Assembly (NCBI GenBank): GCA_029556545.1
Contig: JAKQEQ010000153.1
Location: 62,001-126,000 of the forward strand
From: Candidatus Hydrogenedentota bacterium
Lineage (GTDB): Bacteria; Hydrogenedentota; Hydrogenedentia; Hydrogenedentales; JAGMZX01
Direction: 5' to 3'
DNA length: 64,000 nt
In this document: in pieces, positions 39,802-46,753 of the stretch
Numbering within the stretch: position 1 is the first letter of the stretch
Layout: the number at the start of each line of letters is the position of its first letter
Notes under the pieces: generated by a model
Told to the model about the DNA's origin: nothing
Databases searched by the model: none
What the model saw: the letters and a program-made list of their open reading frames with translations, nothing else
Translations under genes and position numbers: made by a program

Positions 39802-41067
39802 ATGTCCGCACCAAGTAGTGTTTCCGCATCAACGCCGATCAATCGCTGGTTCATCGCCCTTGCGGGCGTAGTCATGCAACTCACGTTGGGGACCGTCTAC
39901 GCCTGGAGCGTGTTCAAGAGGCCGTTCATGGCGCAACACGGCTGGACCAATGACCAGACGGGCCTTGCCTTCACGCTCGTCATTTTCTTCATCGGGGTTT
40001 CCGCGGCCTTCGGCGGCAAGTTCGTTGACAAGGCCGGGGCGCGCAAGGTCGCGACGCTTGCGGCGATTCTGTTCGGATTGGGCACCCTGCTTACCGGTGT
40101 CGCGGATAAATTGGGCAGTCTTTGGCTGCTGTATTTGGGTTACGGCGTCATTGCCGGCATCGGTAACGGCTTAGGCTATATTACCCCCATAGCCGTCCTG
40201 GTGCGTTGGTTTCCCGACAAGCGCGGCCTGATTACCGGTTTGGCGGTCATGGGCTTCGGATTCGGCTCGGCCATTATCGGGCAGATTGCGCCCTTCCTGA
40301 TTCCGGAGGTGAACGCGGCAGGCGAAATCGTCGCCGTGAATCTGGGACTGGCGAAGACCTTCTACGTCTTTGGCGGCGTCTTTCTCGTGCTGCTGCTGGC
40401 GGCCGCCCAGTTCCTTAACAATCCGCCGGCGGGGTGGGCGCCCCCGGTGCCGGCAGGCACGGTGAAGGCCGCGGCGCCGGCGGCGGGCGTGGAACTTGGC
40501 GGTGCGTTGCGGATGTACCAGTTCTACATTCTTTGGCTGCTGCTGTTTCTGAACGTGGCGGCGGGCATCGCGCTGATAAGCAATCTCTCGGTGATGGCGC
40601 AGGACGCCTGCGCGGTGACGGCGGTGGTTGCCGGGACGGTGATCTTTGTCAGTTCATTATTCAACGGTCTGGGGCGCATTTTCTGGGCGAGCCTCTCCGA
40701 CAAGATCGGCCGCAAGACGGTATTCGCGATCATGTTCGGCACGCAGGTTCCGCTGTTCTTCCTGCTGCCCCAAATCAGCAACATCGTCCTGTTTACGGTT
40801 GTTACGTGCTACATCCTCTCGTGCTACGGGGGCGGCTTCGCCTCGATGCCCGCCTATGCGGCCGACACCTTCGGTGCGAAGAACATGGGGCAGATTTATG
40901 GGAAGATTTTGTTGGCGTGGGCCGCGGCGGGCGTTGCCGGCCCGATGCTGATGGAGTACATCAAGAGCAGTTCCGGGACGTTCAAGATGGCCGTCTTTGT
41001 CGCCGGCGGCATGTTAATTGTCGGTTTCCTTCTCAACCTGTGCTACCGCAAGCCAAAGATTGCGTAG
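39802..41067 (+). CDS. Oxalate/formate antiporter-family MFS transporter
   Basis: This 421-residue twelve-helix transporter belongs to the OFA family: NRWFIALAGVVMQLTLGTVYAWSVFKRPF at helix 1 is the hallmark. It is followed by GLAFTLVIFFIGVSAAFGGKFVDKAGARKVA, the helix-4 segment YGVIAGIGNGLGYITPIAVLVRWFPDKRG, and FWASLSDKIGRKTVF between helices 8 and 9. OFA members carry oxalate, formate or other monocarboxylates. Placed directly upstream of formate dehydrogenase genes (53 bases to the next start), it is likely to move formate or a related carboxylate, though other cargo cannot be excluded. Confidence 0.85.
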   Translation: MSAPSSVSASTPINRWFIALAGVVMQLTLGTVYAWSVFKRPFMAQHGWTNDQTGLAFTLVIFFIGVSAAFGGKFVDKAGARKVATLAAILFGLGTLLTGVADKLGSLWLLYLGYGVIAGIGNGLGYITPIAVLVRWFPDKRGLITGLAVMGFGFGSAIIGQIAPFLIPEVNAAGEIVAVNLGLAKTFYVFGGVFLVLLLAAAQFLNNPPAGWAPPVPAGTVKAAAPAAGVELGGALRMYQFYILWLLLFLNVAAGIALISNLSVMAQDACAVTAVVAGTVIFVSSLFNGLGRIFWASLSDKIGRKTVFAIMFGTQVPLFFLLPQISNIVLFTVVTCYILSCYGGGFASMPAYAADTFGAKNMGQIYGKILLAWAAAGVAGPMLMEYIKSSSGTFKMAVFVAGGMLIVGFLLNLCYRKPKIA

Positions 41068-41120: not shown

Positions 41121-43820
41121 ATGAACCTCACTATTGACGGCCGAGAAATCACGGCGGAAGAAGGGCAATCCGTCTTGGAGGCGGCGCGCGCCGCCGGCGT
41201 GTATATCCCCTCCCTGTGCTACCATCCGCGCACGGGCGCGGCGGCCCGTTGCCGGGCGTGCGTGGTGGAAATCGAGGGGCTTCGCGGGCTTCAGACTTCA
41301 TGCACGGTCGCTGCCAGAGACGGCATGGTCGTGCAGACGCAGACCCCCGCCGTTATGGCCACGCGCCGGATGATCGTGGAATTGCTCCTGGCGAACGGGA
41401 ACCATGATTGCATTTCCTGCGAGGCCAACGGCGCGTGCGAATTGCAGGATATGGCGTATCGCCTGGGGATCGAGCACCCGGCGTTTTTTGTTTCGGGAGA
41501 AGCGCAACCCGTGGATGATTCCTCGGAGGGAATCATCCGCGATTTGGGCAAGTGCATCCATTGCGGCCGTTGTGTCGCTGGGTGCAACAACACGGTCATG
41601 CATGAGGTGCTCAACTTCGGTCACCGGGGGGCACGCCTGGAGATAATCTGTGACATCTATAAACCCATGGGCGAGTCCACATGCGTTCAATGCGGCGAGT
41701 GCGTGCAGCTCTGTCCGGTGGGTGCGCTGATATTCAAGCCTTCGAAGGGCCGCGCCCGCGCGTGGGAGGTCGAGCGGAAGGAGGTCATTTGCCCCTACTG
41801 CGGGGTCGGCTGCGTGATCGACATGGGAGTGAAGGACGGCAGATACGTCTGGGCGTTGGGCTCGGAGACCGACTGGCGCAATCGGCCTAACCAGGGCATG
41901 CTGTGTGTGAAGGGCCGTTTCGGCCTCGAATATCTCAATAGCCCGGACCGGCTGACCACACCGCTAATCCGCCGCAACGGAAGCCTCGAACCCGCCACAT
42001 GGGACGAAGCGCTTGACTTCGCGGCCAAGGAACTGCAGGCGGTCCGTCAAAAGCACGGCGCCGACGCCATCGGCTGTCTGAGCTCGGCCAAGGTGACGAA
42101 CGAAGAGAATTACGCGATGCAGCGGTTCGCCCGCGCGGTCATCGGCACGAACAACGTGGACCACTGCGCGCGGCTCTGTCACGCCTCGACGGTGGCCGGG
42201 CTGGCAACGACGCTCGGTTCCGGCGCGATGACCAACAGCATGCAGGAGGCGTCGAAGAGCGACGTCATCCTGATTACGGGCAGCAACACGACGTGGTGCC
42301 ACCCCGTGTTCGGCGGCATGATCAAGAAGGCCGTCAAACAGCACGGCGTAAAGTTGATCGTGCTGGACCCGCGCGAGACCGACCTCGCCGCGATAGCCGA
42401 CATCCACCTGCGCCAGAACAACGGCACGGACGTCGCCTGGCTCATGGGTATGCAGCACATCATCGTGCGCGAGGGCTGGCAGAATCAGGCCTACATCGAC
42501 GAGCGCTGCGAAGGCTGGGAGGAATACAAGGAGAGTCTCGCGTTCTACACGCCCGAGAAGGTCGAGGAACTTACGGGTATTCCGGCGGACCGCCTCTTCG
42601 AGGCGGCGAAGCTCTACGCCACCGGCGGCGTGGCGGCCATCTACTTCAGCATGGGCATTACGCAGCATTCGCACGGCGTCGATAACGTGAAGGCCTGCGC
42701 GAATCTCGCGCTCATTACGGGGAACCTGGGCGTCGAGGGCGGCGGGGTCAACCCCTTGCGCGGCCAGTCGAACGTGCAGGGCGCCTGCGACATGGGCGCT
42801 CTGCCCAACGTATTCAGCGGCTACCAGCCGGTGGCCGACGAGGCCGCGCGCAAGAAGTTCGCCGCGGCGTGGGGCGTGAACGACACGTTCCTGAGCGGCA
42901 AGGTGGGCCAGACGGTTACGACGATGATCAACGCCTGCGGGGAGGAAATCCGGGCGCTCTACTTCATGGGCGAGAACCCGATGGTCAGCGACCCGAATCT
43001 TAATCACGTGGAAGAGCAACTGGAGAAGCTCGACTTCCTGATTGTGCAGGATATCTTCCTGACGGAAACGGCGAGCATGGCGGACGTGGTATTCCCTGGT
43101 GTGGCGTTTGCCGAAAAGTCCGGCACGTACACCAACACGGAGCGTCGCGTGCAATTAAGTCGGGCGGCTATCGAACCGCCGGCGGGCGCCCGGCAAGACT
43201 ACGAGATCATCGCTGAGATGGCCAGTCGCCTCGGGTGCGCCGATTTTCCGCGGACGCCGGAAGCCCTATTTGCCGAGGTCAAGGCGTTGACGCCGTCTTA
43301 TCACGGCATGACCTACGACCGAATCGAGGCAAATCGGGGACTGCGCTGGCCCTGCCCGACGGAGGACCACCCCGGCACGCCGATTCTCCACATCGGAAAG
43401 TTCCCGCGTGGAAAAGGGTTGCTTTCCGCCTTGCCGTACCGTCCACCCGCCGAGGAACCGGATGCGGAATACCCGATGCGGCTCAGCACGGGGCGTATTC
43501 TCCAGCATTACCACACTGGCAGCATGAGCCGGCGCGCGTCGGTGCTTGACCGGTTGGTTCCGCACGGCGACGTCGAGATACATCCCGAGGACGCGCTGGA
43601 ACTCGGACTTGCCGACGGGGTCAAGGTGAAGGTGGCTACGCGGCGTGGCGAAGTGGTGACGATAGCGCGGGTGACGCCGCGTGTCGCGCCAGGGTCGCTG
43701 TTTATGGCGTTCCACTTCGCGGAAGCCGCGGCGAACCGCCTCACCAATGACGCGCTCGATCCCGTGGCGAAGATACCCGAGTTCAAGATATGCGCGGCGC
43801 GCTTGGAAGCGGTCGAATAG
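41121..43820 (+). CDS. fdhA: Formate dehydrogenase catalytic subunit with NuoG-like N-terminus
   Basis: This 899-residue Mo/W-bis-MGD enzyme oxidises formate. Residues 1-80 hold a [2Fe-2S] ferredoxin domain (CYHPRTGAAARCRACVVE, then Cys further on). The next segment has the NuoG His/Cys3 site (NHDCISCEANGACELQ), then two [4Fe-4S] motifs (CIHCGRCVAGC, CVQCGECVQLCP). From about residue 220 the catalytic domain begins with CPYCGVGC...CVKG. The active-site residue is Cys353 in ARLCHASTVAGL (codon TGT), so this is a selenium-free form. The ATG lies behind GAAGGAAG. The fused diaphorase downstream suggests an NAD-linked FdsABG-type enzyme; mobA nearby fits the cofactor need. Confidence 0.92.
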   Translation: MNLTIDGREITAEEGQSVLEAARAAGVYIPSLCYHPRTGAAARCRACVVEIEGLRGLQTSCTVAARDGMVVQTQTPAVMATRRMIVELLLANGNHDCISCEANGACELQDMAYRLGIEHPAFFVSGEAQPVDDSSEGIIRDLGKCIHCGRCVAGCNNTVMHEVLNFGHRGARLEIICDIYKPMGESTCVQCGECVQLCPVGALIFKPSKGRARAWEVERKEVICPYCGVGCVIDMGVKDGRYVWALGSETDWRNRPNQGMLCVKGRFGLEYLNSPDRLTTPLIRRNGSLEPATWDEALDFAAKELQAVRQKHGADAIGCLSSAKVTNEENYAMQRFARAVIGTNNVDHCARLCHASTVAGLATTLGSGAMTNSMQEASKSDVILITGSNTTWCHPVFGGMIKKAVKQHGVKLIVLDPRETDLAAIADIHLRQNNGTDVAWLMGMQHIIVREGWQNQAYIDERCEGWEEYKESLAFYTPEKVEELTGIPADRLFEAAKLYATGGVAAIYFSMGITQHSHGVDNVKACANLALITGNLGVEGGGVNPLRGQSNVQGACDMGALPNVFSGYQPVADEAARKKFAAAWGVNDTFLSGKVGQTVTTMINACGEEIRALYFMGENPMVSDPNLNHVEEQLEKLDFLIVQDIFLTETASMADVVFPGVAFAEKSGTYTNTERRVQLSRAAIEPPAGARQDYEIIAEMASRLGCADFPRTPEALFAEVKALTPSYHGMTYDRIEANRGLRWPCPTEDHPGTPILHIGKFPRGKGLLSALPYRPPAEEPDAEYPMRLSTGRILQHYHTGSMSRRASVLDRLVPHGDVEIHPEDALELGLADGVKVKVATRRGEVVTIARVTPRVAPGSLFMAFHFAEAAANRLTNDALDPVAKIPEFKICAARLEAVE

Positions 43821-43841: not shown

Positions 43842-45581
43842 ATGGAAGACTCCCTGCGAGAGCGAATCGGGATGCTTACGGCCCGATATCCGAGCAAGCG
43901 GGCGGCGTTGCTGCCGGCGCTTCACGCGGCGCAAGAAGCGAACGACGGGGTGATTTCCGAAGAAGACTTAAGCAGTCTGGCCGCGCTCCTCGGCGTCAGC
44001 CCTTCGCACGCATTCGGCGTGGTCTCGTTCTATACGATGTTTCGCACGAAACCCGTGGGAAAGTATCACCTCCAGGTGGACACCAATCTCCCCGCGACGC
44101 TGGCGGGCGCCGAGGAAATCCTCAAACATCTCCTTAAGCACCTCGGTATCAAGTTGGGCCAGACGACGCGCGACGGCCTCTTCACCGTGTCGTCCGTCGA
44201 GGACTTAGGCGCGAGCGGGACCTGTCCTGTTATCCAGGTCAACGATAGATACTATGAGGCGATGACCACCGACAAAGTAGACGCCTTGATCGAGTCGCTG
44301 CGGCGGGGAGAATGGCCGGAGTGGCCGGTCGCGGGCTACTTCGAGTCGGAGTGCAATATCCTCTTGCGGCGTCGCGGAAGACCCGATTCGGCGTCATTGG
44401 AAGGCTACTTGGCGGATGGAGGCTACGGCGCGCTGGCCAAAGCGTTGTCCATGACGCCGGCGGAGGTGGTTGACGCCGTCAAGAGCGCCGCTCTCCGGGG
44501 GCGCGGGGGCGCCGGGTTTCCCGCCGGTCTGAAGTGGGGCTTCGTACCCAAGAACTCGGAGAAGCCCGTATACCTGGTCTGCAACGCGGACGAAGGCGAG
44601 CCGGGCACGTTCAAAGACCGCCAGATCATGGAGTTTGACCCCCACCTGCTGCTCGAAGGCATGGCCATCGCGGGTTACGCGATCGGCGCGAAACGCGGCT
44701 TCCTCTACATCCGCGGCGAGTTCTCGTGGATTGCCCGTATCCTGGAGCAGGCCATCGCCGAGGCGCGTGCGGCGGGAAAACTGGGCGACAATATCCTTGA
44801 CAGCGGATTCGAATTTGACGTGGTGGTACATCGCGGGGCGGGGTCCTATGTTTGCGGCGAAGAGACGGCCCTCATCGAATCGATCGAAGGTAAGCGCGGC
44901 CACCCGCGCATCCGTCCTCCCTTCCCCGCGCAAGAAGGATTGTGGGGCTGTCCCACCGTCGTCAACAACGTGGAAACGCTCGCGTGCGTGCCCTACATCA
45001 TCGAGCATGGGGCGGACGCCTTTCGCAAGATCGGCCCGAATAACAACTTTGGCCCCAAACTCTTCGGCGTTTCCGGGCACGTGAACCGGCCGGGCGTTTT
45101 CGAGTTTCCGATGGGGGTTCCGTTGTCGCGAGTCCTCGAAGCGGCCGGCGGCGTAAAGGGCGAGTTGAAAGCCGTCATCGTGGGCGGGCTGTCAACGCCC
45201 TTGCTGACGGCGGCCGAAGCGGCGGACGTGCGGCTGGACTACGAGTCCTGTCTCAAGTCCGGCACCATGCTCGGCAGCGGCGCCATCATCGTGATGAATC
45301 AGACGGTTTCGATTCCGCGCGCCGCGTTGCGTCTCATGCAGTTCTATGCACACGAGTCGTGCGGCCAATGCACGCCCTGCCGCCAGGGCACGCATACCAT
45401 TGTTCACTTGTTGCAGACCCTTCTCGACGGCCATGGGACACTTCAGGACCTGGAAAACATAGAGCGTTGCGCCGCAACCATCCGGGGAGCGACGTTGTGT
45501 CCCGGCGGGGACGCCTTCGCCGTGCCGTTGGGCGCGATGATCAGGAAATTCCGCCCTGAATTCGAGGCGTTATGCAAGTAG
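43842..45581 (+). CDS. Fused NuoE-NuoF (FdsG-FdsB) diaphorase lacking the NuoE [2Fe-2S] ligands
   Basis: This 579-residue NADH-oxidoreductase subunit starts 21 bases after the formate dehydrogenase. Residues 1-150 are NuoE/FdsG-like, but the four conserved cysteines of the [2Fe-2S] cluster are replaced: Asp80 and Ala85 in QVDTNLPAT, Asp121 and Ser125 in VEDLGASGT. The surrounding family sequence is otherwise well kept. Residues 180-579 are NuoF-like and complete: FMN/NADH motifs RGRGGAGFPAGLKWGF and CNADEGEPGTFKDR, YVCGEETALIESIEG, and the [4Fe-4S] set CGQCTPC plus a distal Cys in LCPGGDAF. Electron flow formate to NAD+ through the NuoF flavin therefore seems possible, while the N1a-type cluster should be absent. 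Confidence 0.9.
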   Translation: MEDSLRERIGMLTARYPSKRAALLPALHAAQEANDGVISEEDLSSLAALLGVSPSHAFGVVSFYTMFRTKPVGKYHLQVDTNLPATLAGAEEILKHLLKHLGIKLGQTTRDGLFTVSSVEDLGASGTCPVIQVNDRYYEAMTTDKVDALIESLRRGEWPEWPVAGYFESECNILLRRRGRPDSASLEGYLADGGYGALAKALSMTPAEVVDAVKSAALRGRGGAGFPAGLKWGFVPKNSEKPVYLVCNADEGEPGTFKDRQIMEFDPHLLLEGMAIAGYAIGAKRGFLYIRGEFSWIARILEQAIAEARAAGKLGDNILDSGFEFDVVVHRGAGSYVCGEETALIESIEGKRGHPRIRPPFPAQEGLWGCPTVVNNVETLACVPYIIEHGADAFRKIGPNNNFGPKLFGVSGHVNRPGVFEFPMGVPLSRVLEAAGGVKGELKAVIVGGLSTPLLTAAEAADVRLDYESCLKSGTMLGSGAIIVMNQTVSIPRAALRLMQFYAHESCGQCTPCRQGTHTIVHLLQTLLDGHGTLQDLENIERCAATIRGATLCPGGDAFAVPLGAMIRKFRPEFEALCK

Positions 45582-45657: not shown

Positions 45658-46053
45658 ATGAAAGCGAAGAAGGACATCTTGGTGATTGATGACGACCCGG
45701 ATATTGCCGAGTATTGCGGCACCGTCCTGGGTAGTCACGGATACCAGGTGCGCAGCGCCATATCCGCCAAAGAAGGCGAGGATGCCCTCCGGGCACAGCG
45801 ACCGGACCTCGTGATCCTGGACATCATGATGGAGTCCCCCGAATCCGGACTGCAACTCGCCGACGTGATCGCGCGCGATTTCCGCGGTCTGCCCGTGATA
45901 CTGTTTTCGTCCATCGCGAACGCTTCCATGCAGGTATTCGACACCAGCAAGCTCCCCGTCTCCGTCATCATTGAAAAACCCATCGAGCCCCAGGAATTGC
46001 TTGCGACGGTTCGCAAGATACTCAAAGACGAATCCGACGACACGCCGGCGTAG
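45658..46053 (+). CDS. Stand-alone receiver-domain protein
   Basis: This 131-residue single CheY-like receiver has the acidic pocket VIDDDPDIAE, phospho-acceptor Asp55 in LVILDIMM, a Ser in ILFSSI at the Thr/Ser switch position, and the conserved Lys in IEKPIEP. There is no output domain. After Asp55 the loop reads ESPESGLQLAD, longer than the usual MPxMDG. A GGAAAGGAAAG ribosome site precedes the ATG. It lies between the formate dehydrogenase genes and mobA, so it may share their transcript. Partner kinase and role are unknown. Confidence 0.8.
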   Translation: MKAKKDILVIDDDPDIAEYCGTVLGSHGYQVRSAISAKEGEDALRAQRPDLVILDIMMESPESGLQLADVIARDFRGLPVILFSSIANASMQVFDTSKLPVSVIIEKPIEPQELLATVRKILKDESDDTPA

Positions 46054-46096: not shown

Positions 46097-46753
46097 GTGG
46101 GTGAACAACGATTCGAGAATCCGCAACGAGTCGAGAAGACCGGAGAAGTGCGTGCGGCCACCGAGACGCCGTGGGGCAGCGACGATCATGAACCGGCCAC
46201 GGTGATCGTGCTCGCCGGCGGCCGGAGCACGCGCATGGGCGTTGACAAGCGCCTCTTGCTGCTGGACGGCGAGCCCATGATTCAGCACATCCACCGACAG
46301 GTCGCGCCCCACTTTGATGAACTGCTGATCGCCGGAGGCGCGGACGGACAATTGGCGTTTCTGAACGCGCGCGTCGTCCCCGACGAAGTTCCCGGACAAG
46401 GCCCGCTCCAAGGGATTGCGTCCGCCCTCGCGGTATCGCGCCATGACCTCAATTTCGTTATCGCGTGCGACATCCCGCTGGTCAATCTCGCCCTGCTCGG
46501 CGCCTTATTGCGGGAAGCGAACGACTGTGATTGCGCGGTCCCCGTTACCCCCGACGGCCGCTGCGAGCCGCTCTTCGCGGTCTATCGCAAGAGCGCGCTA
46601 CCCGCGATGCGGCGTGCGCTGCAAGCGGGCGAACGACGTGTCGTCGCAGCCTTTCAGTATTGTCGCGTGAAGACCGTTCCTCTTGCCTCGCCGGACGAAA
46701 TCAAGAACATCAACACGTTGGACGATTACCGGGAATTCCTCAGCGCCCGATGA
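46097..46753 (+). CDS. mobA: Molybdenum cofactor guanylyltransferase MobA
   Basis: This enzyme attaches GMP to molybdopterin to give the MGD cofactor needed by formate dehydrogenases of the DMSO-reductase family. The nucleotide-binding motif LAGGRSTRMGVDKRLLLLDG is classical, followed by GQGPLQGIASAL, a metal Asp in FVIACDIPLV and the C-terminal NINTLDDYRE. A GTG at 46097, 9 bases behind GGGAGG, is the likely start, giving 218 residues with about 34 residues ahead of the core. Its presence beside fdhA matches that enzyme's cofactor requirement. Confidence 0.88.
   Translation: MGEQRFENPQRVEKTGEVRAATETPWGSDDHEPATVIVLAGGRSTRMGVDKRLLLLDGEPMIQHIHRQVAPHFDELLIAGGADGQLAFLNARVVPDEVPGQGPLQGIASALAVSRHDLNFVIACDIPLVNLALLGALLREANDCDCAVPVTPDGRCEPLFAVYRKSALPAMRRALQAGERRVVAAFQYCRVKTVPLASPDEIKNINTLDDYREFLSAR

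Follow-up and report, generated by a model that had tools for sequence, protein, structure and literature searches.

The window (the whole stretch of DNA analysed, 64,000 nt from a host genome of 6.1 Mb) carries a run of genes that appear to encode an NAD-linked formate dehydrogenase together with conserved neighbours, the features of which are as follows:

39802–41067, + strand: MFS carrier of the group of oxalate/formate antiporters and lactate carriers, a conserved neighbour (NCBIfam, neighbourhood comparison)
41121–43820, + strand: FdhA, 899 aa, with a NuoG-like Fe-S N-terminus and a molybdopterin formate dehydrogenase portion (TIGR01591, 7vw6_A)
43842–45581, + strand: NuoE–NuoF (FdsG–FdsB-like) fusion, 579 aa, the diaphorase subunit of the formate dehydrogenase (open reading frame, Pfam/NCBIfam, AF2)
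43842–44327, + strand: NuoE domain of the fusion (thioredoxin-like [2Fe-2S] ferredoxin fold), lacking the cluster ligands (PF01257, AF2 and structure matches)
45658–46053, + strand: response-regulator receiver protein, a conserved neighbour in several phyla (family assigned by reading the sequence)
46130–46753, + strand: MobA-like molybdenum cofactor guanylyltransferase, a conserved neighbour (family likewise assigned by reading)

FdhA matches TIGR01591 with an E-value of 6.6e-245 (814 bits, over the cut-off of 666), and its best PDB match is the alpha subunit of MeFDH1 (7vw6_A, E 4.4e-222, residues 3–894). An FdhA with a NuoG-like N-terminus adjoining a NuoF is the arrangement of NAD-linked Mo/W formate dehydrogenases of the FdsABG/MeFDH1 kind; the ligands for the [2Fe-2S] G/B2 cluster of such enzymes are absent from the NuoE part. 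FdhA adjoins the fusion in 12 of the 13 loci compared, with MobA, the MFS carrier and the response regulator also there in several phyla. The MFS carrier scores above the cut-off of the NCBIfam L-lactate transporter model (401.7 bits), lies beside formate dehydrogenase in several genomes and may transport formate. The response-regulator receiver is small, with no kinase noted adjoining it.

Within the fusion, Pfam places PF01257 on residues 13–153 (E 2.7e-42; 144.5 bits versus a cut-off of 24.8), Complex1_51K, the FMN domain of NuoF, on residues 213–384, then SLBB, and NADH_4Fe-4S (N3) on residues 494–576. With the NCBIfam models, TIGR01959 (nuoF_fam) falls narrowly above its cut-off, and nuoE_fam narrowly below. 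AF2 models the full fusion with a pLDDT of 88 and a pTM of 0.90. As structure matches of the full-length protein were to NuoF chains only, the NuoE domain was folded separately, giving a pLDDT of 92. The modelled domain matches E. coli, bovine and Thermus NuoE/Nqo2 as well as C. necator FdsG with Z-scores of 17.7–20.4 (19.1 for FdsG), and the claim of a sequence-only reading of this DNA that the fold is kept is thus borne out by a confident NuoE model with Z up to 20.4. By profile and by fold the domain belongs with NuoE/FdsG/HydC (PF01257), whilst the four cysteines of the CxxxxC/CxxxC signature are missing.

The ligand columns were set by alignment with 71 rows of NuoE/FdsG/HydC type that hold all four cysteines (CCCC rows). 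The positions concerned, and the cysteines that are new in the clade of relatives described below, are:

44079–44081, + strand: Asp80 (codon GAC), ligand position 1; Asp in 13/13 clade members
44094–44096, + strand: Ala85 (codon GCG), ligand position 2; Ala in 11 and Gly in 2 of 13
44202–44204, + strand: Asp121 (codon GAC), ligand position 3; Asp in 11 and Cys in 2 of 13
44214–44216, + strand: Ser125 (codon AGC), ligand position 4; Cys in 10, Ser in 2 and Gly in 1 of 13
44223–44225, + strand: Cys128 (codon TGT), clade-new; Cys in 12/13, and the sole cysteine of the NuoE domain here
44352–44354, + strand: Cys171 (codon TGC), at the NuoE/NuoF junction; Cys in 13/13 clade members and 0/64 CCCC rows
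45249–45251, + strand: Cys470 (codon TGT), in the NuoF part; Cys in 13/13 clade members and 3/64 CCCC rows

The alignment puts the ligand columns at the same four residues, Asp80, Ala85, Asp121 and Ser125, that the sequence-only reading had named. That reading also depended on there being no alternative cysteines nearby, and here Cys128, in the context GTCP, is alone in the NuoE domain; other cysteine placements are therefore ruled out, since a single residue is too few for an all-cysteine [2Fe-2S] cluster within the domain. A further claim, that all four ligands had changed together, is contradicted by the graded patterns found across the clade, which run DADS (this genome), DADG, DADC, DACC, DGDC and DGDS, with Cys125 present in 10 and Cys121 in 2 of the 13 members. 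Such grading indicates that two cysteines were lost early, a third mostly, and the fourth in a few lines only. Position 125 is Ser in this genome alone of three Hydrogenedentota, the other two having Gly and Cys, and a change of one base would turn either AGC (Ser125) or GGT (Gly125) into a Cys codon. Cysteines 125 and 128 are both absent in L078, and C125 is also absent in this genome and in L038.

With regard to the distribution of the cluster-less fusion, relatives were sought in genome contigs, in 68 Hydrogenedentota genomes, and in samples of the groups to which other members belong. This yielded 12 distinct relatives of 56–80 % identity, all of them fused NuoE–NuoF proteins, which together with this genome form a clade of 13. 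They come from two Hydrogenedentota, Actinomycetota (Gaiellales), Myxococcota, Acidobacteriota (Thermoanaerobaculaceae and others) and one further lineage. Members are sparse, occurring in 3 of the 68 Hydrogenedentota genomes, and in 2 of 195 and 4 of 396 in the Myxococcota and Acidobacteriota searches, respectively; a plasmid search returned no match at or above 60 % identity in the set searched. Because the clade spans phyla, of which there are at least four, horizontal transfer of the fusion between them appears likely. In a NuoF tree of 91 sequences these D-type proteins fall into one clade (support 99/84), the sister of which comprises three Nitrospirota enzymes (98/94), and a 41-row tree that includes C. 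necator HoxF returns the same clade (98/93) and the same sister grouping (100/99). Amongst the three Hydrogenedentota, dN/dS is 0.09–0.11 for the NuoE domain and 0.06–0.10 for the NuoF part, values that are rough as synonymous sites are near saturation; judged by this ratio of about 0.1, the NuoE domain is under purifying selection.

Fused NuoE–NuoF proteins without N1a are already known in HoxF, from R. eutropha (PMC3189943) and from the H. thermoluteolus structure 5XF9 (PMC8880783). The sequence-only reading noted neither this published precedent nor the invariant cysteines that the clade acquired. HoxF of C. necator/R. eutropha and H. thermoluteolus shares with the present protein the fusion, the absence of N1a, an NAD-only diaphorase and a loss limited to the off-pathway cluster. 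The two differ in that the HoxF loops (patterns C-A-C-S, as in C. necator, or C-E-C-S) keep the first cysteine and lose the second, whereas here the first cysteine of each loop has become Asp, and in that the partner of HoxF is a [NiFe] hydrogenase rather than FdhA. HoxF-type proteins form a clade of their own in the 41-row tree (100/100), with four-cysteine rows sitting between the HoxF and D-type clades; the HoxF branch is long and its exact placement thus unsure. The fusion therefore lies outside the HoxF clade, with none of the HoxU/Y/H setting around it, and a common origin with HoxF is rejected on the separation of the two clades in the trees. This genome also encodes a second NuoE–NuoF fusion, a HoxF (L116:10461-12542, − strand; L005) with the pattern C-E-C-S, which adjoins HoxU-, HoxY- and HoxH-like genes and so belongs to an NAD-reducing [NiFe] hydrogenase.

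Other formate dehydrogenases provide closer parallels in organisation. MeFDH1 of M. extorquens (7E5Z, 7VW6) likewise has two subunits, FdhA with a NuoG-like N-terminus and a fused NuoE–NuoF beta subunit, the latter also without the FdsB N-terminal domain. However, B2, the [2Fe-2S] cluster whose ligands are lacking here, is retained in its beta subunit, and MeFDH1 has no A5 cluster, whereas our FdhA retains cysteines 97, 100 and 106. As the NuoE domains of the two match at an E-value of only 0.32, MeFDH1 is probably a separate lineage. The FdsABG(D) enzymes (R. capsulatus 6TGA, C. necator 6VW7) share the FdsG fold and an FdsA-like catalytic subunit, but encode FdsG and FdsB as separate genes, with a [2Fe-2S] cluster in FdsG; their FdsB carries an additional thioredoxin-like domain at its N-terminus, which is itself cluster-less (PMC7171172). 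The Nitrospirota sister clade (L046, L053, L047) possesses the same FdhA–NuoE–NuoF gene set, with an FdhA about 49 % identical to ours, although its NuoE is separate and holds all four cysteines, in contrast to the fused, ligand-free form found here.

Taken together, it is probable that this is an NAD-linked Mo/W formate dehydrogenase in which the off-pathway N1a cluster was lost within a fused NuoE–NuoF lineage, with NuoE retained as a structural element. The main electron chain is intact, including the following:

45360–45500, + strand: N3-type [4Fe-4S] ligands C507, C510, C513 and C553, intact and invariant in 13/13

The putative Fe-S cysteines of FdhA, as taken from domain matches (33, 44, 47, 61, 97, 100, 106, 145, 148, 151, 155, 188, 191, 194, 198, 224, 227, 231 and 262), are likewise kept in every relative compared, so the loss is specific to N1a. 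Electrons from the oxidation of formate by FdhA would travel along its Fe-S chain to N3 in the NuoF part, and from there to FMN and NAD+, whilst the side-branch N1a, on the far side of FMN, would have been lost once, in the ancestor of the NuoE–NuoF-fused clade. In the fused beta subunit of MeFDH1 the [2Fe-2S] cluster B2 is placed outside the electron relay (PMC10869683), and for its counterpart in the R. capsulatus enzyme, proposals have been confined to side roles (PMC7171172); electrons should therefore be able to pass from formate through N3 and FMN to NAD+ without it. The ligands are gone and the fold is kept, and the enzyme looks like the plain NAD-linked formate dehydrogenase that had been proposed from sequence.

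The NuoE domain would now act as a structural cap over the FMN/NADH site, and Asp80 and Asp121, which stand where the two cluster loops once had their first cysteine, may mimic its negative charge and hydrogen bonds. In Aquifex NuoEF, the third ligand, Cys127, hydrogen-bonds a water that touches the flipping peptide near the nicotinamide, and NAD+ is held in place by reduced N1a, which is proposed in this way to gate NAD+ release (PMC6560083). As Asp121 stands at the Cys127 position, the present enzyme should have lost this redox control, with the gate presumably absent or fixed.

Complex I mutants in N1a ligands fail to assemble, and the cluster has been proposed as necessary for assembly or stability (PMC3898324), so its loss needs compensation; covalent fusion of NuoE to NuoF may have made cluster-dependent assembly dispensable. 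Every one of the cluster-less tree rows (20/20) is fused and none of the 57 separate NuoE rows is cluster-less, a pattern that stems from only two independent origins, so that the Fisher value computed for it does not serve as a probability. Four cysteines are retained in 7 fused tree rows, and these, together with MeFDH1, indicate that fusion is not sufficient for the loss. Our hypothesis is that NuoE–NuoF fusion licenses it.

The stabilising role of the cluster could also have passed to a disulfide or tight contact between C171 and C470 that pins the NuoE domain on NuoF, an idea that is compatible with the explanation above and which we hold to be possible, if on the unlikely side. Both residues are fixed in 13/13 members, both stand where the sister clade has other residues, and one lies at the fusion junction; the enzyme is, however, cytoplasmic, which argues against a disulfide. 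More doubtful still is that N1a was swapped for a new [2Fe-2S] cluster or a single-metal site close to the flavin, where NuoE and NuoF meet, formed by Asp80, Asp/Cys121, Cys171 and Cys470 and, in members that have them, by Cys125 and Cys128. All members have ligand-capable residues at 80 (Asp), 121 (Asp or Cys), 171 and 470, and 12 of 13 have C128; neither C171 nor C470 occurs in the sister clade or in HoxF-type rows (C128 is also missing from the former), and the changes mark the very clade whose N1a cysteines are gone. Against this, the four residues are far apart along the chain, C125 and C128 are not constant (both fail in L078, the former in two further members), and a disulfide or simple packing would account equally well for C171 and C470.

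Flavin-based bifurcation has been tied to clusters B1–B5 in BfuB and C1 in BfuC (PMC9304861, PMC11406978, PMC8880783), with the full set held necessary (PMC11406978, PMC8880783), and it is the B2–B5 set in BfuB/HydB that sets bifurcating enzymes apart. Whilst Bfu-type formate dehydrogenases have been described (PMC9304861), it is highly improbable that this is one of them, with some other site in place of C1. The Pfam search of the fusion found neither an N-terminal B5 domain nor a C-terminal 2x[4Fe-4S] (B3/B4) domain, its domains being NuoE, FMN, SLBB and NADH_4Fe-4S only, with the chain ending at residue 579 right behind the N3 domain; the C1 ligands are absent as well. A Bfu-type enzyme is rejected on this make-up, and as no domain is available for B3, B4 or B5, the cluster-less enzyme is likely non-bifurcating whatever the state of N1a. 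The earlier view that it does not bifurcate is thus likely right, mainly because BfuB-specific domains are missing, whereas the step by which it was reached, from loss of N1a, is weak because the R. capsulatus formate dehydrogenase (cluster G7/G1) and complex I (N1a) have the cluster, yet are classed as non-bifurcating (PMC7171172, PMC8880783). In agreement with the non-bifurcating call, HoxFUYH enzymes without HoxE show no reaction with ferredoxin (PMC11647496).

Although the source is a metagenome-assembled genome, faulty assembly or gene decay is a negligible prospect and is rejected for all substitutions save S125 (Ser in this genome alone of the three Hydrogenedentota), as the same residues occur in independent genomes of several phyla (D80, A85 and D121 recur in two separately assembled Hydrogenedentota genomes, and so are not sequencing errors), and as a single supported clade, a dN/dS of about 0.1, a normal predicted NuoE fold and an intact operon uphold the original conclusion that random decay is not at work.

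A limited, open-access literature search found no earlier cluster-less NuoE domain in a formate dehydrogenase. As far as those papers show, what is new is that a lineage of formate dehydrogenases lost the cluster independently and more completely, with Asp in place of Cys and with further cysteines newly conserved. What N1a does in complex I-type diaphorases is a matter of dispute, with protection from ROS, gating of NAD+ release and assembly all put forward, and the question is hard to test in complex I because ligand mutants do not assemble. The clade offers a natural way to ask what the side-branch cluster does, since its sister clade, with cluster and the same partner FdhA, allows direct comparison with a naturally cluster-less diaphorase. 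Together with HoxF, it suggests that NuoE–NuoF fusion can make the cluster dispensable, and it also offers a starting design for simpler NAD-linked formate dehydrogenases.

Two further observations concern FdhA. Its active-site residue 353 (codon 42177–42179) is Cys in this genome, in L112 of the Hydrogenedentota and in L110, whilst in the sister clade and in most of the relatives the codon is an in-frame TGA, as selenocysteine would require (compared in L107, L114, L109, L040, L041, L042, L108, L111, L046, L053 and L047); the best score of a tRNA-Sec search in this genome was 44.5 bits, below the gathering score of 47. Lastly, the NuoG-like HxxxCxxCxxxxxC motif (41403–41438, Cys97–Cys106) reads NHDCISCEANGAC, where the His precedes the first Cys by two residues instead of four, as is also the case in L112 and L110.
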